Source: Daucus carota subsp. sativus (taxonomy: Eukaryota > Streptophyta > Magnoliopsida > Apiales > Apiaceae). Taken from it: a DNA stretch of 64,000 nt. The stretch is taken from positions 22,042,545 through 22,106,544 of the forward strand of contig NC_030386.2 in NCBI RefSeq assembly GCF_001625215.2, read 5' to 3'. Every line of letters starts with the position of its first letter. Positions within the stretch are counted from its first letter, which is position 1. Shown piece after piece: positions 1-21,022 of the stretch. The translations under genes were made by a program, and so were the position numbers. The notes under the pieces are model-generated. The model searched no databases. It saw only the letters and a list, made by a program, of their open reading frames with translations, and had not been told where the DNA came from.

Positions 1-395
1 ACTCATACCTGATGTTTGGTTGAAAATTTTCTTTTATCAACCCCATTACTCAAACCCACAAGGTATGAGATTTTCATACCCAAGGGGGGAGGTGGATATG
101 AAACATGGGTTTCTGGAATCAAATTCTTTTTCTTTTATTTCATTACTATTTATATCATTTCATGTAAATTATTAATACAAAATGAAATTAATGACTCAAA
201 AATGTATGTAAATATTAATTTAATGATATTTTAAATTAATTACAACTAATAACTAATAAATATTATAATTCAATCATATTTATTCCACCACTCAACCAAA
301 CACCTGATATCAGAAATGATACCTCAAACACATACCATCTTAACCCGATTCCTCATTCCAACCCCATACCCCCTCTCCAACCAAACGACCCCTAA
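1..395. mobile_element. MITE-like element, left end outside window
   Basis: The stretch is very AT-rich and is framed by inverted motifs: TGTTTGGTTG near position 14 and CCAACCAAACGACCCC ending near 391. It stops exactly where the segmental duplication begins (TAAGGCCATTTAG at 393), and the paralogous site at 5081 lacks it. This fits a non-autonomous DNA transposon inserted at a TAA-type target, but the left terminus lies at or beyond the window edge, so the superfamily is not established. No coding capacity is visible. Confidence 0.45.
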
Positions 396-1157
396 GGCCA
401 TTTAGTAGAAGAAGAGGTGGGCTATGACAAATAAGGCCTGAGACTAAAATACACGAGCATTAGCCCGTCCAAATGTCCAATATCTCAATTTTGCTTTCCT
501 AGTAAACTGGCTCGCCCAATCATACTTGACTTCAAGTGATATAGCCCTGTAAAAGAACCCGTTAAATATATTTTCCCCTCTCATTTAATTTATATATGTT
601 TTTTATTTACTATTATACATCCAATTTAAATTTTGTATAAAATATTTATTTATGTTTTGTTTTAATATATTTAGGATTAAAAAATTAAATATTGATTTTT
701 TATTAAAAAATTTAGAAAAATAAGTTATAAAAATATATTTTACCGAAGAATTAAAATGTGTGTATGCAACCCGTGTCTCAGTATATACTATTGGATGGGA
801 TCGAGGAGTACTAAACAAATCTTCTAAAAGATCATGCAAATAATTTGTGATTAGAAATATATGTAGAAATTTGAATTCTAACATGTCAACAAATATAAAA
901 TTAATTGGTAAAATTCTAACATGTCAAGAAATGAAGAATGATGCGAAGAGAAGTTAGAGCAAATTCAACAATGTCCTAAATTGATGTTCTCAGTACACAA
1001 AGAACAAGAAGTTTCTAAATGATATTTTAATCTGGCGCACACTGCAGACCTTTGTACATGAGTATTCAGGTTCTCAACATCTTGATGCTGATAGTTAGTT
1101 AGAGTAGAAACACCACAATGTATTTGATTACTTTTGCGATTATTTCTTTATGTCACA

Positions 1158-1661: not shown

Positions 1662-1805
1662 GGGCCGCAGTAATTACACAGTTCATCATATTCAGTAGCT
1701 AGTATTGAAATATGGAGCGAATCATCTATTAGCAGAACAGTCCTTCCATAGTTCCATTGCATCAAAATTCACATATCAAACATTGCAATTTGCACCATAT
1801 AAAGA

Positions 1806-2532
1806 GAGTCTGGATCCTCTGTCTCCTTTTCTATTGATCACTTCCTTAATTTGCACGTGAATCATAGTTTCTCTTTATTTTTTCTCTGATAATTTTTCAC
1901 CGTTAAACTTTTTGAAATTTATATAACCTGCATTTTTATTATTAAAATATAAAATATGTGTATAAAAAATATAAATTATGATTTCATCCCACAGATAATA
2001 ACGAGGCCCCCTGCATGCACAGTAATCTTATAATTAAAATTAGCCTTTTATATAAAATCGGTCAATTTGTTATTTAATAATAAATTAATGTTTTTTAATT
2101 ATTTCAATGATATTAAAAATATAAATGATATGTGGCAAAAAAATATAAATGATGTAATTCTAATCATTTATATTTTTTAATTCTAATTTTAGCTAAAAAA
2201 TATTAGTGTGCATGCAAGGGGGTCTTGTTATTATTTGTAGGATGAAATTAGTTTATATATTTTATGCACATACTTGTTACTTTTCTAGTTTAAAAAATGC
2301 AAAATTTGGGTATATATTATTATATTAAAATAAATCTTATATTCAACATGATTTTTTATAAAAAAATAAATAAAATTAAACTATATAAAATATATTTTAA
2401 TAATAAAAATGTAGGTTATATAAATTTGAAAAAGTTTAACGGTGAAAAAACTATGATTCACGTGCAAAGTAAGGAACTGACCAATAGAAAATAAGAGACA
2501 TACAAGGGGACAGAGACCGAGGATCCAGACTC
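1806..2532. mobile_element. Non-autonomous Mutator-like foldback element
   Basis: The element is a 727-bp inverted repeat: it begins GAGTCTGGATCCTC and ends with the complement, and the arms stay complementary for over 100 bp (GCACGTGAATCATAGTTT near 1852 pairs with AACTATGATTCACGTGC near 2450). It is flanked by an exact 9-bp target duplication ATATAAAGA (1797-1805 and 2533-2541). Copy B holds a single ATATAAAGA at the same place, which is the intact empty site. A 9-bp duplication with long terminal inverted repeats is characteristic of Mutator-like elements. No transposase is encoded. Confidence 0.85.
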
Positions 2533-3481
2533 ATATAAAGACAACTTTCGGGATCATACTAATAAACTGATGCAGTCAATTGCGGTTTCTAGATAACTTT
2601 AGGTCGAGTGCAGCTTTTAATTTTATTTTATAATTCTGGCGGCAGAAAACAAATATATTGCACTAATGTGTTGAGTGAGATTAAAATAAGTATTTTTTAT
2701 TTAAAATAAAAAAAGTGAAGCAGAAGTTACAAGTTAAGACTTATAAGTAATTATAGTGTTTGGAAAATAAGCGGAAGTCATGAAACAAAAGTTATTGTCT
2801 GTTTCGTCAAGGCCGCTTCTAGCTTTTTTTGATAAAAAGACGGCTTTTACTTTTTTTTTATCCGTTTGTGTAAAAAACCAGAAGCACTTGTAAAATGTTG
2901 AAAAGTTGAGAATACTGACTTTTGTTTGAGTATTTCTACTTCTTTTCCAAACAGTTTAATCATTTATAAGTTTAATTTACCTCTCATTTCTAGTTCACTT
3001 CTTTACCTCTTTCTCAAACAGTTTAATCACTTATAAGTCTCAATTATTTTTCACTTTTATTATATTTTTTATTTTAATCAATAAGCACTTTTTTTAAGGT
3101 TACACAAACAGTTTCCAACATTCTCGACCTTTTACAAGTATATGTTGATTTTTTACACAAACGATACGAATAAGTGTTTCGAACTCATAAACTCAAAACC
3201 GGCCTTTTATGCCCGGCCAAACATCCCCGTGATACCGAGTGCTACCTATAGTTTTGTGTTCTGGTCAAGCTCACCTATATATTTGGTTTGCAATATCTTA
3301 CTGCTAATAGTTACTTATAGTAGAAACAGCACGATGTAATTGTTTTTTCCTTGATGTGTTCATGCCGCTGCAGATATGAATATACACGTACAGTTCACTC
3401 TATTCAGCAGCAGCTAGTATTGGAAACATGGAGTCGTTTATCAACACATGCTTTACAATGTGGATCATCATGATCCTCATC

Positions 3482-3487
3482 TATAAG
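3482..3487 (+). promoter_or_regulatory. TATA box of Kunitz gene 1
   Basis: CTATAAGTAG lies about 55 bp before the start codon and is conserved at the same distance in the paralogous gene. It would place transcription start roughly 25-30 bp upstream of the ATG. Confidence 0.6.
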
Positions 3488-3537
3488 TAGCACGATTCTT
3501 TCATTGTATCATCACTCACTTATCAAAATCCCACAAT

Positions 3538-4149
3538 ATGAAAACAAACATCTGCATTTTAATCGTTCTTCTATACGGCTCGTACCTCGCAGCAGCCATC
3601 CTCCCACCCACCGTGTATGATCGATCGCAGCAGAGAGTGCTAGCTGGCATAAGATACTACATACTTCCAATTTCACGCGGCCACGGTGGCATCACAATAG
3701 CTTCCACTCGGAACAAAACTTGTCCACTCGATGTGGCTCAAGAGCTCAGTGTCTATAATCGAGGCCTCGGAGTCACTTTCCATCGAGTGGATCCGACTGC
3801 GCATTCTATACGTCTTTCTACTGATTTGACTATAAAATTTGTCAGGTCCGCGGCCAAGGCTTGTGCTCAATCTTCATACTGGAAGGCGGATGGTTATGAC
3901 AATTTGAGAGCGCGATATTTTGTTACAATTGGAGGAGCTGGAGGCAAGCCAGGTGGTGAATCCCTCCCCGGTACGTTCAGAATTGAAAAGGAGGGGAATG
4001 GATATAAGATTGTGTATTGTAGACTGGTGAATTGTGTCGCGGCACCTTGCGAACCGGTTTGCAAGAATGTTGGAGTGTATCAGGAACAGGGGAGGATTCT
4101 GTTAGCATTGGCTGATGAACCGCTTGTGGTTAAGTTTCGCAAGGTGTAA
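3538..4149 (+). CDS. Kunitz-type (miraculin-like) protease inhibitor, copy 1
   Basis: An intronless gene of 203 codons, as usual for the Kunitz STI family. Residues 1-20 form a hydrophobic signal peptide ending in LAAA, so the product should be secreted or vacuolar. The family signature follows (VYDRSQQRVLAGIRYYILP, residues 26-44), then NKTCPLDV with the first conserved cysteine at 62, KACAQSSYW (Cys109), and a cysteine-rich C-terminal loop (Cys161, 166, 171, 175), a pattern typical of miraculin-like members. A potential N-glycosylation site overlaps NKT. Aligning by eye to soybean STI, the P1 position of the reactive loop (HSIRLS) is Ser90 rather than Arg or Lys, so canonical trypsin inhibition is doubtful. 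The gene stops two codons earlier than its paralogue because TAA replaces TAT. Confidence 0.93.
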   Translation: MKTNICILIVLLYGSYLAAAILPPTVYDRSQQRVLAGIRYYILPISRGHGGITIASTRNKTCPLDVAQELSVYNRGLGVTFHRVDPTAHSIRLSTDLTIKFVRSAAKACAQSSYWKADGYDNLRARYFVTIGGAGGKPGGESLPGTFRIEKEGNGYKIVYCRLVNCVAAPCEPVCKNVGVYQEQGRILLALADEPLVVKFRKV

Positions 4150-4281
4150 GAGGGTTGAAGCTCATGTGTTATGGATTGTCAGATGGCTGAGGCATCCACT
4201 ACTTCACTTTCTATGATCAGTTGATCACTTGCTGATAAATAATAATGGGTATAGCTGTGTAAAGTACCCTTGCTACATATC

Positions 4282-5080: not shown

Positions 5081-6502
5081 TAAGGCCATTTAGTAGAAGA
5101 AGAGGTGGGCTGTGACAAATAACACAAACGTGAATAACTAGGCCTGAGACTAAAATACACAAGCATTAGCCCGTCCAACTCCAATATCTCAATTTTGCTT
5201 TCCTAGTGAACTGGCCCGCCCAATCATACTTGAGTAGTTGGGTTCAACTTATAGCCATGTAAAAGAATCCGTTAAAATATACTTTCTCCGTCTTATTTAA
5301 CTAGTTGAGAAGCCGCCCGTTGCGGCGGCCTATAAAAATTATATTAATGATTTAATATTAATATTTGTAATATAAAATAATTTTGTGCTGTCTATAAAAA
5401 GTATATTATTGTTTCAAAATTAATATTTGTAGGATAAAATAAATTTTATATTATAAAAATCTTGATGTAATACCAATACTAATATATAAAATTGCAAAAT
5501 TAGACTATAATTCATGGTGGAAAAATAAAAATAAATTTATACACATAATTAACAATTTAAAGCACGACGAATCTTAATTTTATTTGTGTGTTTTTTTTAA
5601 AGTAATTATGTTCCTACATTGTCACCTTACTCCAGTTTTTTTGGATTGATTGTGCACAAAAACATATAACTTAAATCCGTGAGATGGCGGTCTATAACTA
5701 ACCTTGCTTGTAACAATAATGTATAAACAGTCTTAACTTAAAAGTTGCTTGAACGGAGCAAATAAATAATACATGAATAATTTTTTTACCGTATGCAAAG
5801 TAAATCATATAAAAATTAACAACAACAAACATGTCCGAAAAAACAAAACAAATATTATAAAATAATAACCAACAAACATACATCACTAACAGTTAATTTA
5901 TATTATCCATCAATATCATGTCAAGTCTATATTCTTTTCCCGTGTTTGGATTTGTCGACTCGAACATAGCGGTCTATAACTACTTTTACTTACAGCAACC
6001 TTTATTTTTTTAATACTGTATAAACAGCATTCACTTATCGTTGCAGAAAACGGCACCACCGAGTTAGAAACCGAGCAAAAGAACTTTCACCTGAGAGAGG
6101 TAGGGTTGTGGTATTGAGAGAGAGGAGGTTGTGTTTTGATGATTCAAAACCCTACAATCTATAGGAGTATTTATAGCTGCACAGAGACTTGTATGCTACT
6201 CTTTCCCATAATTAAATAATTAAATAATCTGAAACAAAATCAGATTAAAACTTTCAATCTACTATATTCCATAAATAATCTGAAATAAAATCAGATTAAA
6301 ACTTTTAAACTACTATATTCCATAAATAATCTGAAACAAAATCGGATTCAGAAACTTGCTTCTAATATACCTGAAACTAAAAAAGGTAGTTCTAATTTTT
6401 GATATTATTTCATCCAAAAATTCCAGAAAATTAGAAAAATAGAACGGAGCGATGTGAGAGACGCCACCTATACGCCCCTCGCTTCTCCTTTATATAAGTA
6501 TA

Positions 6503-9209
6503 CTAGTGAAAAAAGCCGCGCTTCGCGGCGGCGTTATGAATTTTTTATAAATTTAGACAAAAAATTGTTTTAGCTACTTTACCGTCAAACATAATACTAA
6601 TAAAAAATTATTATTATTTAGGTAAAAATTAATTTGGGCCACCCTCCCCTTAAACACAATACTAATAAATAATTTTTTTTATAAAGTTTGATACGAAATA
6701 CTATTATAATTCCATAAAAGTTATTTTCAGTCGTGTTCCCGTTAAACATATCTTCAATATATCTTATCGAAAATAAGAATTGTATATATTACTTTACATA
6801 TCTTAAATATAAATTGTATTTTATCTATTATTATTAGTTTGAATAAATATAATCCTATTTGTTTTGGATTACTAAATAAGAAAAAGAATTGTATCATCTT
6901 TAGAATTCAATAAGAAATACTATTGTATCATCTTTAGAGTTTAATAAGAAATACCAAATAAGAAAAGAACTGTATCATCTTTAGAATTAAATAAGAAAAG
7001 AATTGTATTACATAAAGCCGCGCTTCGCGGCAGCGTTATGATTTTTTTATAATTTTGATACGAATTAATATTATAATTGCATAAAAGTTATTTTGAGTCA
7101 TGTTCCCGTTAAACATATCATTAATAAAGAAAATATTATAATAATTATAAAAATTTGTTTAAGTGACCCTCTTGTCAAACACAATACTAATAAAAAAAAT
7201 AGTTTGAACCGCCCTCCCATCAAAGATAATATTAATCAATAATTATTATAATTATGATAAAATTAAATATAATAATATAGATAAAAATAGTTTGAGCTGC
7301 TCTCTTGTCAAACACAATACTAATAACAAATAGTTATAACATAGATATTAGTTTGAGTCGCCCTACCCCTACCGTCAAACATAATACTAATAAAAATTAT
7401 TAAAATTACGATATGATAAAGTTAAAGATTATGATTGGATAAAAATTAATTTCAGTTGTGGTCCCGTTTTAATAAAGAAAATAATATTATAACTTAGATA
7501 AATATATTTTAGCCGCTTTTCCGTCAAACATAATACTAATAGAAAATTTATTATTATTTAGATAAAAATTAATTTGGGCCGCCCTCCCCTCAAACACAAT
7601 ACTAATCAAGAATCATTTACATTATAATAAAATTATAATTATAATCGGATAAATATATCCAATTTCATAGATTTTAACTATTATATATTTTTTTAAGATT
7701 TCTATTTCTTAATTGTTTAGAATTATCTCTCTTTTCTTTTAAGATTCCTATTTCTTAACTACTTAGAATTTCATAGATTTTAGCTATTATATTTTTGTTA
7801 AAATTCCTATTTCTTAACTACTTAAAATTATATCTCTTTTACGATTATTGTATTTTAGCTACTTTACCTATTTTCTTTCAGAAAAATAGAAAAACTAAAC
7901 GGAGAGTTTATAGAGACGCCACCTAAAGCCACGCTTCGCAGCGTCGTTATAAATTTTGATATGAATTAATATCATAATAACATAAAAATTTGAGTCATCT
8001 TCCCGTTAAACATATTACTAATAAAAATTATTATAATTAGTAAAGATATTTGTTTAAGTGGCCATCTTGTCAAACACAATACTAATAGTAAAATTAGTTT
8101 GAACCGGCCTCTCGTGAAAGACAATATTAATCCATAATTATTATTTTTATGATAAAATTAAATATTATAATTTAGATCAAAATTAGTTTGAGCCGCTTTC
8201 TTGTCAAACACAATACTAATAACAAAGTATTATAATTTAGATATTAGTTTGAGTCGCCTTACTGTCAAACACAATACTAATAAAAATTATTTTAATTATG
8301 ATAAAATTAAAGATTATAATTGGATAAAAATTATTTTGAACCATGGAACCGTTTTAACAAAAAAAATATTATAACATGGATAAAAATTATATTAGCCACT
8401 TTCTCGTCAAACATAATACTAATAGAAAAATTATTATTTTTTAGATAAAAATTAGTTTGGGCTGCCTCCCGTGCCCGTCAAACACAATGCTAATCAAGAA
8501 TCATTTACATTATTATAAAATCAATATATGATTCCTATTTTATATATCCTATTTTTTTTGTTAATTATTTTTATTTTATGATTCCTATTTATTGGTTAAA
8601 AATTATTATTCTTTTATGGTTCCAATTTTTTTGCTATTAGTTTTTTTAATGATTAATATCTTTACAATCCTTTTTTTTATGCGAAATTTTAAAAAAATTA
8701 TAAGACTAAATTGAAAATAAAAATTATATGTATTACCCTACAAATCCTAAATATAAATTGTATTTTATCTATTTTTTTTTTTTTTTTGAAGGCAAATTGT
8801 ATTTTATCTATGATTGTTAGTTTAAATGAATATAATCCTACTCCTTTTAGGATTCATAAATAAGAAAAGAATTGTATTGCCTTTAGAATCCAAAGCGAAA
8901 AGAATTGTAATAACTTTTGAAATCCTTGAACCTGATTTTTTAAATATAAACCTATTTTTTTTTTTAGGATTACTAAATAAGAAAAGAATTGTATCATCTT
9001 TAGTTATCAATAAGAAATACTAAATAAAAAAGAAAAGAATTGTATTATCTTTAGAATTAAATAAGAAAAGAGTTGTATTACTTTTAGAATTCTTGGACCT
9101 GATTTTTTAAATTATAACTATATTTTCTCTCCGAAAATCAAGAAAATTCAGAGGTTTGAATCGAGCAATCTTAGAGACGCCCGCATCCTCCTTTATATAT
9201 ATATATTGA
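6503..9209 (-). mobile_element. Helitron 2 (non-autonomous) nested in the 5' tip of Helitron 1
   Basis: The minus-strand 5' end TCAATATATATATATAAAGG is at 9209 and the 3' end is at 6503: hairpin CCGCGAAGCGCGG, then CTTTTTTCACTAG and a flanking T. It inserted between A and T of TCAA|TATACTT, the first bases of Helitron 1. Partial extra 3'-end hairpins at about 7015 and 7920 show internal tandem copies, and the body is a diverged minisatellite (about 6560-8500). It shares its 5' end with the family of Helitron 1 but has a different 3' hairpin. No transposition protein is encoded. Confidence 0.8.
6560..8500. repeat. Diverged minisatellite inside Helitron 2
   Basis: About seventeen variants of the core GTCAAACACAATACTAAT occur, preceded by TTTGAGCCGCCCTC-like text, spaced mostly 50-100 bp apart and separated by AT-rich linkers such as AATTATTATAATTATGATAAAATTA. 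Confidence 0.75.
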
Positions 9210-9543
9210 TTGATTTATATATTTTTTTATTTTTTATTCTACATCTAATTTAAATTTTGTATAAAATATTATTTTATAATTTATTTTTAATATATTTAGA
9301 ATTAAAAAATAAATATAAATCTAGAATATGAGTGATAAAAATATATTTTGTGGAAGAATTAAAATGTGTGTATACAGCCCGTGTCTTAATATATATTATT
9401 GGATGGGATTGAGGGAGTACTAAACAAATCTTTTAAAATATCATGCAAATAATTTGTGATTAGAAATATATGTAGAAATTTGAATTCTAACACGTCAACA
9501 GATATAAAATTAATTGGTAGAATTCTAACACAAGAAGAAATGA

Positions 9544-10015
9544 TTCGAGTGGTGTATTGGATTGGGATTTTAAAGCATTTTTTTTTTTTGCATTCATAAA
9601 ATCTGAGAGTATTCGATTGGGATTGTTTGAAATCCATTAAAATGTTGAGGTATTCAATTGGGATTTCAAATTATGCTACAAAATCTGGTGGTATTCAATT
9701 GAGATTTTAAATTATGTTTTAAAATCCGATGATATTCAATTGAGATTGTTTAAAATCCATTAAAATTTGATGGTATTCAAATGCTGATTGATTTTTTTGT
9801 ATTTTATAAAATGATGGATTTTGTGGCATTCTTCAATGTATTTTAAGTTTTTTGAAATCACATCAAAATCAATGGGATTTTGAAACATTGTGTTTAAATC
9901 CTATCAACTCTGCGAAATTTTATCAAGAATCCGCACAAAATCAAAATCAGACACAATCCATTAAAATCCATAGACTAAAAACAATTCATTAAAATCTCAA
10001 TCGAATACCCCTTCG
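9544..10015. mobile_element. MITE with long inverted termini
   Basis: Termini TTCGAGTGGTGTATTGGATT and, inverted, TTCGAAGGGGTATTCGATTG continue as related AAAATCCATTAAAAT-type repeats throughout. Copy A of the duplication reads AAGAAATGAAGAATGATG without this segment, so it is a clean insertion. No clear target duplication longer than 2-3 bp is visible. Confidence 0.7.
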
Positions 10016-11228
10016 AAGAATGATGCGAAGAGAAGTTAGGCAAGTCCAACAAGGTCAAATTGATGTTCTAAATAAATACACAAGAAGTTTCTAAATGATA
10101 TTTTAATCTGGCGCACACTTCAGACCTTTGTACAGTATTCAGGTTCTCAACATCTTGATGCTGATAGTTAGAGTAGAAACAGCACAATGTATTTGATTAC
10201 TTTTGCGATTATTTCTTTATGTCGCAGTAATTACACAGTTCATCATATTCAGTAGCTAGTATTGGAAATATGGAGCGAATCATCTATTAGTAGAACAGTC
10301 CTTCCATAGTTCCATTGCATCTCCATTCACTTATCAAACATTGCGATTTGCACCATATAAAGACAACTTTCGGGATCATACTAATAAACTGATGCAGTCA
10401 ATTGCGGTTTCTAGATAACTTTAGGTCGAGTGCAGCTTTTAATTTTATTTTATAATTCTGGCGGCAGAATACAGATATATTGCACTAGTTTATTGAGTGA
10501 AAATAACATAAGTGTTTCTCAATTAAAATAAAGAAGTGAAGCAGAAGTTATAAGTAAGTTAAGACTTATAAGTAATTATAGTGTTTGGAAAATAAGCGCA
10601 AGTCATGAAACAAAAACTAGTGTCTGTTTCGTCAAGGCTGCTTTTAGCTTTTTTTGATAAAAAGACGGCTTTTACTTTTCTTGATCCGTTTGTGTAAAAA
10701 ACCAGAAGCACTTGTAAAATGTTAAAAGGTTGAGAATACTAACTTTTGTTTGAGCATTTTCACTTCTTTCCCAAACAGTTTAATCACTTGTAAGTCTTAA
10801 TTATTTCTCACTTGTATTATACTTTTTATTTTTAAGCAAGAAGCACTTTTTTTAAGGTTACCCAAACAGTTTTCAGCATTCTCGACCTTTTACAAGTACT
10901 TGTTGACTTTTTATACAAACGCTACGAATAAGTGCTTCGAACTTATAAAGGGTTTTATGCCTGGGCAAACATCCCCGTAATACCGAGTGCTACCTATAGT
11001 TTTATGTTGTGGTCAAGCACACCTATATATTTGGTTTGCAATATCTTACTGCTAATAGTTACTTACAGTAGAAACAGCACGATGTAATTGTTTTTTTCTT
11101 GATGTGTTAAAGCCGCTGATACGAATTCACACAGTTCACTCTATTCAGCAGCAGCTAGTATTGGAAACATGGAGTCGGTTATCAGCATATGCTTTAAAAT
11201 GTGGATCAATATCATCATGATCGTCATC

Positions 11229-11234
11229 TATAAG
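11229..11234 (+). promoter_or_regulatory. TATA box of Kunitz gene 2
   Basis: CTATAAGTAG lies about 55 bp before the ATG, identical in sequence and position to that of Kunitz gene 1. Confidence 0.6.
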
Positions 11235-11284
11235 TAGCACAATTCTTTCATTGTATCTTCACTCACTTATCAACATCCCACAAT

Positions 11285-11902
11285 ATGAAATCAAATACCT
11301 GCATTTTAATCGTTCTTCTCTACGGCTCATACCTCGCAGCAGCCATCCTCCCACCCACCGTGTATGATAAATCGCAGCAGAAAGTGATCGCTGGCATAAG
11401 ATACTACATACTTCCAATTTCACGCGGCCACGGTGGCATCACAATAGCTTCCACTCGGAACAAAACTTGCCCACTCGATGTGGCTCAAGAGCTCAGTGTC
11501 TATAATCGAGGCCTCGGAGTCACTTTTAATCGAGTGGATGCGAGTGCGCATACTGTACGTGTTTCTACTGATTTAACTATAAAATTCTCCAGCCCGGCCA
11601 AGGCTTGCGCTCAATCATCATACTGGAAGGTGGATGGTTATGACAATTTGAGAGCGCGATATTTTGTTACAATTGGAGGAGTTGGAGGCAAGCATAGTGG
11701 TAAATCCCTCCCCGGGACGTTCAGAATTGAAAAGGAGGGGAATGGATATAAGATTGTGTATTGTAGACCGGTCAATTGTGTCGCTACACCTTGCGAACCG
11801 GTTTGCAAGAATGTTGGAGTGTATGAGCAACATGGGGGGATTCTCTTGGCATTGGCTGATGAACCGCTTGTGGTTAAGTTTCGCAAGGTGTATGAGGGCT
11901 GA
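11285..11902 (+). CDS. Kunitz-type (miraculin-like) protease inhibitor, copy 2
   Basis: An intronless gene of 205 codons, the tandem paralogue of the gene at 3538. It has the same signal peptide (residues 1-20, one extra Cys at 5 from a T-C change), the Kunitz signature near residues 26-44, and the same six mature cysteines. It differs mainly in the reactive-loop region (residues 82-93: NRVDASAHTVRV here, HRVDPTAHSIRL in copy 1), in a one-residue deletion next to the second cysteine, and in the C-terminus (three extra residues YEG). The P1-equivalent residue is Thr rather than a basic residue, so trypsin may not be the target. Product expected in the secretory pathway. Promoter, leader and poly(A) region are shared with copy 1, so similar expression is likely. 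Confidence 0.93.
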   Translation: MKSNTCILIVLLYGSYLAAAILPPTVYDKSQQKVIAGIRYYILPISRGHGGITIASTRNKTCPLDVAQELSVYNRGLGVTFNRVDASAHTVRVSTDLTIKFSSPAKACAQSSYWKVDGYDNLRARYFVTIGGVGGKHSGKSLPGTFRIEKEGNGYKIVYCRPVNCVATPCEPVCKNVGVYEQHGGILLALADEPLVVKFRKVYEG

Positions 11903-17961: not shown

Positions 17962-19770
17962 TCAATATACTTATATAAAGGAGAAGCGAGGGGCGTGTAG
18001 GTGGCGTCTCTCACATCGCTCCGTTCTATTTTTCTAATTTTTTGGAATTTTTGGATGAAAAAATATCAGAAATTAGAACTACCTTTTTTAGTTTCGGGTA
18101 TATTAGAAGCAAGTTTCAGAATCTGATTTTGTTTCATATTATTTATGGAATATAGTAGTTTGAAAATTTTAATCTGATTTTGTTTCAGATTATCTAATTA
18201 TGGGAAAGAGTAGCACACAAGTTTCTCTGCACCTATAAATACCCCTATAGATTGTAGGATTTTGAATCATCTAAACACAACCTCCTCTCTCTCTCAATAT
18301 TGGGGGAAAGCTAGAGGAGCCCCGGTTCGGCTCGGTTCCAAGATAAAACCGAAACCGCAACCATATATCCTCGGTTTTTAAAATCCAAAACCGTAACCGT
18401 CGGTTCGGATTCGGTTTTAAAAACTCTGATTCGGTTTTAATCAGTTCGGTTTCGATTATAAAACCGACAAAGTTATAAATTAAAAATAATATACGAAGAA
18501 GACTAATTAATATGCGTAATATATACGTAATAATCAACTTATTTATTAAAAAAGATTTCAAAACACGTCTGAGTCTTGATCGGTTAGTGGACATGAAGAA
18601 GAAAACTGTACATGATCACTTCACTTTGTGTAAAACTGAAACTCTTACTGAGATCAGAAACACCAGGAGCCAAAGTAAATTTAAAAGATGATGGGGGATA
18701 TTGGATGAATATATCATCACATGGTATCTTCATAATTCGTACGAAGCGAAGACTTGAGTTGATTTATAAATTCAAACAAATTGCAACTCATCATAGAATT
18801 ATGTCCCAGCCCTCTCATTTACCTGTGGTTCTTAATATTTATTTTAAAATTCATATAAATTGTATATATAAATATATTTATTTAATTATTTAAATAATTA
18901 TTCGGTTCGGTTTTTTTCGATTCGGTTTTAACCAATAATCGGAACCGAACCCATGATATCGGTTCAGTTTTTAATTTTTCGGTTTCGGTTTTTTCCAAAT
19001 CAGTTTTAATCGTTTTTTACCGGTTTCGGTTCTTTTTCAGTTTTTTGCTCAGCCTACTCAATACCACAACTCTATCTCTCTCTCATAATAGTTCTCTTGC
19101 TCGAATTCTAACTCGATGGTGCCGTTCTTCAGCAACGATAAGTGAAGGTGTTAGTAGTTCTTTTGCTCGATTTCTAACTCGGTGGTGGCGTTCTTCTGCA
19201 ACGATAAGTGAAGGCTGTTTATACAGTATTAAAGAAAATAAAGGTTGTTGAAAGTGAAAGTAGTTATAGACCTCTGTGTTGAAGTCGACAAATCTAGACA
19301 CAGGAAAGAATATAGTCTTGACATGACATGATATTAATAGATGATATCAATAAATTAACGGTTAGTAATATATGTTTGTTGGTCATTATTTTATAATATA
19401 TAGTTTGTTTTTCGGACATGTTTGTTGTTGAACTTTGTATTCAGGAAAAACACAAATAAAATTAAAATTTGTCGTACTTTAAATTAAAAATAAAATTAAA
19501 ATTCGTCATACTTTAAATTGTTAATTACGTGTATAAATTTATTTTCATTTTTTCACCATGAATTATAGTCTAATTTGACAATTTTATATATTAGTATTGA
19601 TATTACATCTAGATTTTTATAATATAAAATTTATTTTATCCTACAAATATTAATTTTGAAACATTAATATATTTTTTATAAACATCCACAAAATTATTTT
19701 ATTCTACAAATATTAATATTAAATCATTAATATAATTTTTATAGGCCGCCGCAACGCGCGGCTTCTCAAC
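17962..19770 (+). mobile_element. Helitron A (non-autonomous), interrupted by a hAT element
   Basis: It begins A|TCAATATACTTATATAAAGG at 17962 and ends with the hairpin CCGCCGCAACGCGCGG and CTTCTCAAC at 19770. It belongs to the same family as Helitron 1 (minus strand, 5301) and Helitron B directly downstream. Its 3' CTAG is lost at the junction with Helitron B. Inside is a conserved stretch with CCTATAAATACCCCTATAG followed by a CT-rich leader-like segment. The hAT insertion is at 18300-19055. No Rep/helicase. Confidence 0.75.
18300..19055. mobile_element. Non-autonomous hAT element (GGTTCGG type) inside Helitron A
   Basis: A 756-bp insert full of GGTTCGGTTTCGG-like motifs in opposite orientation at its two ends. 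It is flanked by TCTCAATA (18292-18299) and ACTCAATA (19056-19063), an 8-bp duplication with one change. Helitron B reads TCTCTCAATACCAC uninterrupted (near 20352), giving the empty site. It is the same type as the element at 53674-54514. Confidence 0.75.
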
Positions 19771-21022
19771 TTACTTATATAAAGGAGAAGCTGAGGGGCG
19801 TGTAGGTGGCGCCTCTCATAACGTTCCGTTCTATTTTTCTAATTTTCTAGAATTTTTGGAAGAAAAATATCAATAATTAGAATTACCTATTTTAGTTTCG
19901 GGTATATTTGAAGCAAGTTTCAGAATCTGATTTTGTTTCAAATTATTTATGGAATATAGTAGCTTGAACGTTTTAATCTGATTTTGTTTCAAATTATTTA
20001 ATTATGGGAAAGACAAATTATTTATGGAATATAGTAGTTTGAAAATTTTAATCTGATTTTGTTTCAGATTATTTAATTATGTGAAAGAGTAACCCACAAG
20101 TCTCTCTGCACCTATAAATACCCCTATAGATTATTGGGTTTGGATCATCTAAACACAACCTCCTCTCTCTCATTACCACAAACCTAACTCTCACCATAGC
20201 AAGCAAAGGTAGTTATAATCTGATTCTTGAAAGTTTTAATATGATTTTGTTTCGATTATTTAATTATGGAAAAGAGTAGCACACAAGTCTCTCTGCACCT
20301 AAATAATTCTGTAGATCGTAGGGTTTTGGATCATCTAAACACAACCTCCTCTCTCTCAATACCACAAACATACCTCTCACCTTTGCAAGCAAAGGTAGTT
20401 ATAGACCGTTATATTGGAATCGACAAATCCAAATACGGGAAAAAAATATAGTCTTGACATGATATTGATGGTTGATACATGTTTGTTGTTGTTAATTTTT
20501 ATATGATTTACCTTGTGCACAAGAAAAAATTATACATGCATTATCTGTTTGCTCCGTTCAAGCAACTTTTAAGTAAAGGTTGTTTATACAGTATTAAAAA
20601 ATAAAGGTTGTTACAAGTAAGGGTAGTTATAAACCGATATCTCACATATTTGAGTTAGATGTTTTTGTGCACAATCAATCCAAAAAAAATTGGAGGAAGG
20701 TGACAATGTAAGAACATGATTACTTTTAAAAAAAAAACAAATAAATTAAGATTCGTCATGCTTTAAATTGTCAATTACATGTATAAATTTATTTAAATTT
20801 TTTCGCTATAAATTATAGTCCAATTTTGCAATTTTATATATTAGTATTGGTATTACATTAAGATTTTTATAATATAAATTTATTTTATCCTGCAAAGATT
20901 AATTTTAAAACATTAATATACCTTTTATAGACAGCCACAAAATTATTTTATTCTACAAATATTAATATTGAATCATTAATATAATTTTTGTAGACCGCCG
21001 CAACGCGCGGTTTCTCAACTAG
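19771..21022 (+). mobile_element. Helitron B (non-autonomous), tandem to Helitron A
   Basis: It starts at TTACTTATATAAAGGAGAAG (its first bases, TCAATA, missing at the junction) and ends with the hairpin CCGCCGCAACGCGCGG, then TTTCTCAACTAG and a flanking T at 21023. It contains two internal direct duplications: the TTTATGGAATATAGTAG segment (19947, 20013) and the segment holding CACAAGTCTCTCTGCACCT (20095 and 20281). No transposition protein. Confidence 0.75.

Follow-up and report, generated by a model that had tools for sequence, protein, structure and literature searches.

Nested Helitrons in the carrot genome: insertion of one element after the fourth base of another's 5' tip, and the genome-wide recurrence of the same head-to-tail junction

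We analysed a 64,000-nucleotide stretch of the carrot genome (Daucus carota subsp. sativus, C6:22042545-22106544; hereafter the window), in which two Helitrons lie one inside the other on the minus strand. The genome searched for related sequences comprised 441,086,747 bases in 11 contigs. By direct reading of the minus strand the order at the locus was ...ATATAAA|TCAA|TCAATATATATATATAAAGG...GCCGCGAAGCGCGGCTTTTTTCACTAG|TATACTTATATAAAGG...GCCGCCGCAACGGGCGGCTTCTCAACTAG|TTAAATAAG. The host element, Helitron 1, started at 9213 with TCAA and ended at 5301 with the 3' end CTCAACTAG. It was broken after its fourth base by Helitron 2, which ran from 9209 to 6503 (TCAATATATATATATAAAGG...TTTTTTCACTAG), and it resumed at 6502 with TATACTTATATAAAGG. 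A first-pass annotation of the window had placed Helitron 2 between the A and the T of TCAA|TATACTT in the tip of Helitron 1, and this position proved exact to the base.

The ends proposed there for the two elements, 5301/9213 and 6503/9209, were supported by other copies in the genome, and no copy with conflicting ends was encountered. For Helitron 1 the 19 best non-self matches were fetched; the alignment reached the last base of the element (CTAG) in 18/19 and started from the first base of TCAA in 10/19. Among the seven non-self copies fetched for Helitron 2, four began at base 1 and two at base 4, and the seventh (L002) had the same tip with approx. 130 bases missing behind it. Both elements contained the 5' TC and the 3' CTRR, here CTAG, of canonical Helitrons, and GC-rich 3' hairpins were located 11 and 12 bases from their ends, the z value for Helitron 2 being modest. 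The longest closed open reading frame overlapping the two-Helitron region was 65 amino acids. Together with entry at A|T without target duplication, described below, these features are best explained if both elements are canonical Helitrons of the Helitron1 type, probably non-coding and non-autonomous. Candidate RepHel sources are present in the genome, as judged from at least 168 matches to Helitron_like_N (PF14214), one of them in an open frame of 1501 amino acids; the same domain gave matches in 0/14 control genomes.

The flanks of the occupied site (copy B) were searched against the genome separately. The left flank (5081-5300) had two matches, itself and C6:22042937-22043132, and the right flank (9214-9560) had 18, the best non-self match being C6:22043133-22043478. 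The two non-self matches abut with zero bases between them at C6:22043132|22043133, corresponding to 588|589 of the window (copy A). When the joined flanks were aligned to copy A, 476 of 522 ungapped columns were identical; the join itself was ungapped (...TTTAA|TTTATATAT...) and gaps occurred elsewhere. Removal of both elements thus gives the uninterrupted arrangement of copy A across 588|589, which the first-pass annotation had given as near 587, and the empty site bears out its claim that both insertions followed the A|T rule and left no duplication. Copies A and B are located within a local tandem duplication, which is the source of the empty site. Its repeat blocks are 7.7-8.6 kb apart and mostly 89-95% alike, one of them 80%, and include 1707-4150 and 10265-11894 of the window. 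Most simply, both insertions postdate this duplication.

Table 1. Features of the nested Helitron locus and of a second head-to-tail pair in the window.
Positions	Strand	Feature	Basis or remark
393..934	+	Copy A, empty site 588|589, part of the local tandem duplication	Flank matches, joined-flank alignment
5081..5300	+	Copy B (occupied site), left flank	Genome match, alignment to copy A
5301..6502	-	Helitron 1 body, host element, TATACTT to 3' CTAG	18 of 19 fetched non-self copies align to the last base
5312..5329	-	Helitron 1 3' hairpin, 11 bases before the element end	Fold, z -2.5
6503..9209	-	Helitron 2, between A and T of TCAA|TATACTT	Direct reading, genome matches, fetched copies
6515..6529	-	Helitron 2 3' hairpin, 12 bases before the element end	Fold, z -1.5
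7017..7031	-	Internal hairpin, formerly the terminator as in usual ~2.2-kb copies	Followed by CTTTATGTAATAC in place of the usual CTTTATTCACTAG
7925..7942	-	Second internal terminator-like hairpin, then the 5'-region motif AGGTGGCGTCTC	Copy alignment; may mark an older array
9210..9213	-	TCAA, Helitron 1 bases 1-4, split from the body by Helitron 2	Missing in the empty site; 10 of 19 copies begin TCAATATACTT
9214..9543	+	Copy B (occupied site), right flank	Genome match, alignment to copy A
17962..21022	+	Second head-to-tail pair, Helitron-1-type, junction at TACTTATATAAAGG in the second tip (~19770)	

While the nested order described in the first-pass annotation was borne out by the empty site, Helitron 2 turned out to be a 3'-extended and probably fused variant and not a standard element. 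It measures 2707 bp, and the usual copies of its family (~2.2 kb) end about 500 bp earlier, stopping soon after position 2196 with CTTTATTCACTAG, as seen in 5/7 fetched copies. In the window copy and in L002, which is 98% identical to it, the sequence after this hairpin continues into other DNA. Part of the extension (positions 2199-2366 of the element) resembles the element's own 5' part (129-269) at 74%, and the extension ends approx. 510 bases on, at a new hairpin and CTAG, to which L002 matches until one base before the last. From this layout Helitron 2 is best interpreted as an ancient head-to-tail array whose units became fused through loss of inner terminators and tips. A tandem-repeat block with 14 diverged copies of a ~65-base unit (60-78% to the reference) was also found inside Helitron 2, at 6551-8437.

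To find out how common the junction is, we searched the genome for CTAG|TATACTTATATAAAGGRG. There were 65 exact occurrences, the window's counted, and 164 with at most two mismatches; the reversed-pattern control, also allowing two mismatches, gave 3, and some of the two-mismatch matches lacked CTAG. The corresponding tips, TCAATATACTTATATAAAGGRG, numbered 1893 with at most two mismatches (control 1) and 1319 in a one-mismatch search. Of the 65 exact junctions we retrieved the 30 that come first along the genome, and by eye a Helitron-like 3' end preceded the CTAG in 30/30. Two types of 3' end were present among them, and in 6/30 (7/31 with the window) a 3' end of the Helitron-2 type was joined to a tip of the Helitron-1 type. 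The closest of these six to the window's insert, in L054, was 89% identical over 1007 columns. The first-pass annotation had regarded the locus as a clean record of nesting; the nested order and the empty site hold, but the case is not isolated, with the same oriented junction present 65 times.

A wider pattern, CTAGN{0,16}TATATAAAGGAGAAG, gave 128 exact matches (control 0). Among the 100 listed, the host sequence resumed with TATACTT in 49, with TCAATATACTT in 20, with TACTT in 15 and otherwise in 16, and T stood first in 100/100. Sites slightly deeper in the tip were almost empty, CTTA|TATAAAGG giving 1 match and CTTATA|TAAAGG 0. Mere clustering of Helitrons was rejected on account of these two counts, though the target model described below also rates the deeper sites low. 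The inverted pattern TATATTGAN{0,16}TATATAAAGGAGAAG gave 1 match, in which the host tip was apparently uncut; this pattern requires eight bases of the inserted tip to match exactly, as against four of the 3' end, and is thus less sensitive, but hardly a hundredfold. Starting from the inserted ends, 967 3' ends of the form CGCGGCTTCTCAACTAG, representing one family, were found with at most one mismatch. Eight of the 100 listed lay within an exact tip, and three further ones in near-variant tips, two of these from one C3 cluster. On C3 (14737373-14903415) several Helitron 3' ends within 170 kb share an identical or almost identical flank, TTTAAACTAAT..., and two have TATGCTTATATAAAAGAG, giving the look of local amplification.

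An ordinary target preference could account for such counts if tips are simply good A|T-rich targets and the resident element directs nothing. We modelled target choice from 100 listed 3' flanks and 100 listed 5' flanks, treating positions as independent. In the strict model, 11 3' flanks in tips and 3 repeats were dropped, which left 86; on the 5' side repeats and flanks ending in CTAG, TCAA, TCAATA or CAATCA were dropped, which left 66. Six variants of the model restore dropped rows, so that overall 86-89 and 66-100 flanks were used. The targets were asymmetric, with A (94% of 66) before and T (86/86) after the insertion point, T at +2 in 85%, and A-rich positions at +8 to +12. When 13,236 oriented A|T sites in the window were scored with the strict model, TCAA|TATACTT was placed at the 93rd percentile, at 3.3 times the mean site, and the observed orientation was favoured over the inverted one 4.6:1. 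The predicted fraction of insertions at 1400 tips, a round figure near the tip counts, was 5e-5. The observed fraction was 0.08 (95% interval 0.035-0.15; 100 listed ends).

Several results of the model variants weigh against a targeted origin of the junctions. Leaving out the TCAA flanks makes the model predict fewer insertions at TCAA|T; when they were kept the prediction rose threefold, to 1.4e-4 to 1.6e-4, and the orientation preference to 26-29:1. When the tip sites were kept too, so that the hot spot was built in, the values reached 4.0e-4 to 4.6e-4 and 71-80:1, the upper end being near the observed bias. Much of the orientation bias may thus follow from sequence preference. The rate is a different matter, as the observed fraction is about 170-1,600 times that predicted. 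The site A|TCAA was rated at ~0.01 of the mean site in six of six variants, yet it accounts for 20/100 listed junctions, and dependence between positions could narrow the gap in rate but hardly close it. The T found at +2 in most target sites is present in none of the three tip sites, a mismatch that counts against the tips as a favoured target. We concluded that sequence preference cannot explain the tip rate; simple A|T richness was rejected as its cause, since the target models predict far too few tip entries, and ordinary target preference as the whole explanation is not very likely. The orientation bias could otherwise reflect survival, with inverted tip insertions arising but being lost because facing copies are unstable. 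Inverted repeats are generally unstable, which speaks for such a loss. It would leave the hot spot unexplained, however, and in the 7/31 junctions that combine a Helitron-2-type 3' end with a Helitron-1-type tip, insert and host need not be alike; we consider survival an improbable source of the pattern.

To resolve whether the junctions represent separate events or copies of a few, we used a set of 31 junctions, the 30 fetched and the window's. Distances between the insert 3' ends were not correlated with distances between the host 5' ends (Mantel r -0.04, p 0.58), nor were they within the commoner 3'-end type alone (n=24, r -0.07, p 0.59). Two parts of the insert compared with each other were correlated, with r 0.71 and p 0.0002 for the full set and r 0.45 and p 0.01 for the commoner type. 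Uncorrelated insert and host indicate that most junctions look like separate events. The alternative is that the pair moved as one composite, nested elsewhere first and transposed whole with the outer TC and CTAG as its ends, and that the junctions in the genome are copies of few composites. Such a composite retains a valid 5' TC and 3' CTAG, and its movement has been proposed, in the excerpts available of these studies, for maize (PMC3288121) and Fusarium (PMC5148889). In its favour, and at odds with separate events throughout, 4/335 junction-spanning matches were at least 92% identical over at least 300 columns: L059/L070 (97.7%, 1831 columns), L063/L069 (92.6%, 1257), L057/L078 (92.5%, 602) and L050/L072 (92.1%, 573). 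Some junctions may therefore be copies of one another. On the other side stand the missing correlation and the observation that the closest relatives of Helitron 1 (L010, 97%) and of Helitron 2 (L002, 98%) are not joined together. Composite multiplication as a general cause was rejected by the Mantel test, leaving four near-identical or similar pairs, and we regard composite movement as unlikely.

Entry at TCAA|TATACTT necessarily places the four bases TCAA directly ahead of the insert. In 14 of the 31 loci the insert tip was not in reach and in 2 CTAG was present there, leaving 15 testable loci, the window included. TCAA preceded the insert in 10/15, as compared with 22/96 unselected tips (Fisher p 0.001); the 100 unselected tips comprised 22 with TCAA, 74 with none and 4 with CTAG. 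The fit was incomplete, and three observations go the other way. Four of the 15 (L060, L069, L073 and L077) had no TCAA before the insert, L065 had TCAATA where TCAA was expected, and ladders of TCAA (22/100 tips) were commoner than tip junctions (8-11/100 ends). The last difference implies that many ladders were inherited or have another source, and inheritance probably contributes. Junctions lacking the left-over TCAA would be in keeping with a second round of movement that began at the inner TC, and the four loci could be composites of this kind, by analogy with the proposal for maize (PMC3288121, in excerpt). For the site TCAATA|TACTT a single case was seen, L015, in which the Helitron 2 tip is restored by joining TCAATA, upstream of the insert, to TATATATATAAAGG on its other side. 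Among the flanks from the one-mismatch tip search the count of TCAATA left-overs was zero; two candidate strings end in TCAATATA and were not used.

Head-to-tail arrays could also have been built as rolling-circle concatemers, or by recombination between a circle and a resident element. Head-to-tail junctions and tandem arrays are cited as evidence for rolling-circle transposition in the excerpted text of PMC5876387, and the junction expected from it, CTAG|TCAATATACTT, makes up 20/100 of the listed junctions. Dimers would retain TCAA at the junction, however, and the largest class (49/100 listed) lacks it; insert and host in this TATACTT class were uncorrelated. Five loci of the CTAG|TCAA class were fetched, and no near-identical pair of units was found in these five: in L079 and L082 the units were 84-86% alike and in L080 they belonged to two families. 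The other two, L081 and L083, lacked similarity ahead of the junction and had no recognisable Helitron 3' end, which is a point against counting every match as a junction, as the 128 matches thus include some false ones with a chance CTAG. At the window locus CTAG|TATACTT joins two different families. A concatemer origin was rejected there, because the junction lacks TCAA and two families are involved, and as an explanation of the arrays in general it is highly improbable.

Further irregular junctions were noted. In the second head-to-tail pair of the window the junction reads CTCAACT|TACTTATATAAAGG, with the AG of CTAG gone, and no left-over tip bases precede 17962. The same two-base loss of AG was seen in L054, ~827 bases past its own junction (CTCAACT|TATACTT). 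In L014, L025, L026, L027, L079 and L083, repeated 5' regions of the Helitron-1 type were joined to TATATAAAGG or nearby bases with no obvious 3' end between them.

We consider it very probable that the locus arose by serial insertion, Helitron 1 first and Helitron 2 second, as one case of a genome-wide hot spot at Helitron tips; stepwise insertion is the simplest order. Helitron 1 would have entered the A|T of one copy in the locally duplicated region, and Helitron 2 would then have inserted, with matching orientation, after base 4 of the Helitron 1 tip, again at an A|T. The general habit would be entry 0-6 bases from the start of a resident 5' tip (A|TCAA, TCAA|TATACTT or TCAATA|TACTT), nearly always head-to-tail, whereby the first bases of the host tip would often stay upstream of the insert. 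Repeated entry would give arrays and TCAA ladders, and where inner terminators are later lost, units may become fused into longer elements, of which Helitron 2 would be one. As to why the tip is favoured, it may resemble the element's own cleavage site and be opened, held or bound by the transposase to start transposition; an incoming circle could then be joined at the open tip, on the same strand and a few bases from the nick, which would explain place, orientation and use across families. That the transposase in this way makes the 5' start tip its own strongest insertion site, entered no more than 6 bases from the nick and with a single orientation, is a possibility that we put forward tentatively, as it falls somewhat short of being probable. 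If true, residents recruit new copies into growing head-to-tail arrays, TCAA ladders record their depth and fusion lengthens the elements.

Head-to-tail arrays have so far been read as products of rolling-circle replication or of serial insertions, and the base-exact junctions, the local empty site and the uncorrelated insert and host favour serial insertion. Target choice thereby becomes countable, as the rate and the orientation of entry into resident tips, and a route from small to larger elements is offered. Nested and adjacent Helitrons, and the preference of maize Helitrons for other Helitrons, were already known; the carrot junctions belong to a familiar type of event, in a form that suggests strong targeting. 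In the open-licence literature searched, no strongly oriented hot spot exact to the base was found for the first 6 tip bases, and among the matches listed no paper on Helitron nesting in carrot was apparent by title.

The comparisons that follow refer to excerpts of the cited papers. In maize, head-to-tail adjacent Helitrons from separate insertions have been described, with the A|T at the 5' end of the resident as one proposed route (PMC2267711). The carrot locus is similar in that head-to-tail neighbours most probably arose by separate insertions; it differs in that the maize case is one CTAG|TC pair whose order was left open, whereas in carrot the insert is inside the tip, an empty site is present and the junction occurs 65 times. 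Maize Helitrons also prefer sites near or inside other Helitrons, as cited from Yang et al. in PMC3288121, and nested copies there give elements with several 3' ends or termini; neither a base-exact tip hot spot nor an orientation bias is described in the excerpts of that paper. For the animal systems Helraiser and bat Helibat (PMC4778049, PMC5876387), circles with CTAG joined to TC, insertion at A|T, bypass of the 3' end and an AT-rich preference strongest 3' of the target have been reported. The A|T target, the AT-rich preference on the 3' side and insertion right beside other Helitrons are shared with carrot, and the circles and the 3' bypass would be so too; a hot spot at resident tips is not described in the excerpted parts, and 701 re-transposition sites were unclustered around the donor sites. 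In Fusarium, FoHeli elements show self-insertion, with an insert 2 bp before the resident 5' end, and multiple 5' termini, and in Metarhizium three Helitron copies in tandem were explained either way (PMC5148889). The repeated 5' regions that we saw at six carrot loci resemble these multiple 5' termini. Self-insertion is common to FoHeli and the carrot elements, and the difference is that the FoHeli elements are non-canonical and Helitron2-like and are known from single cases.

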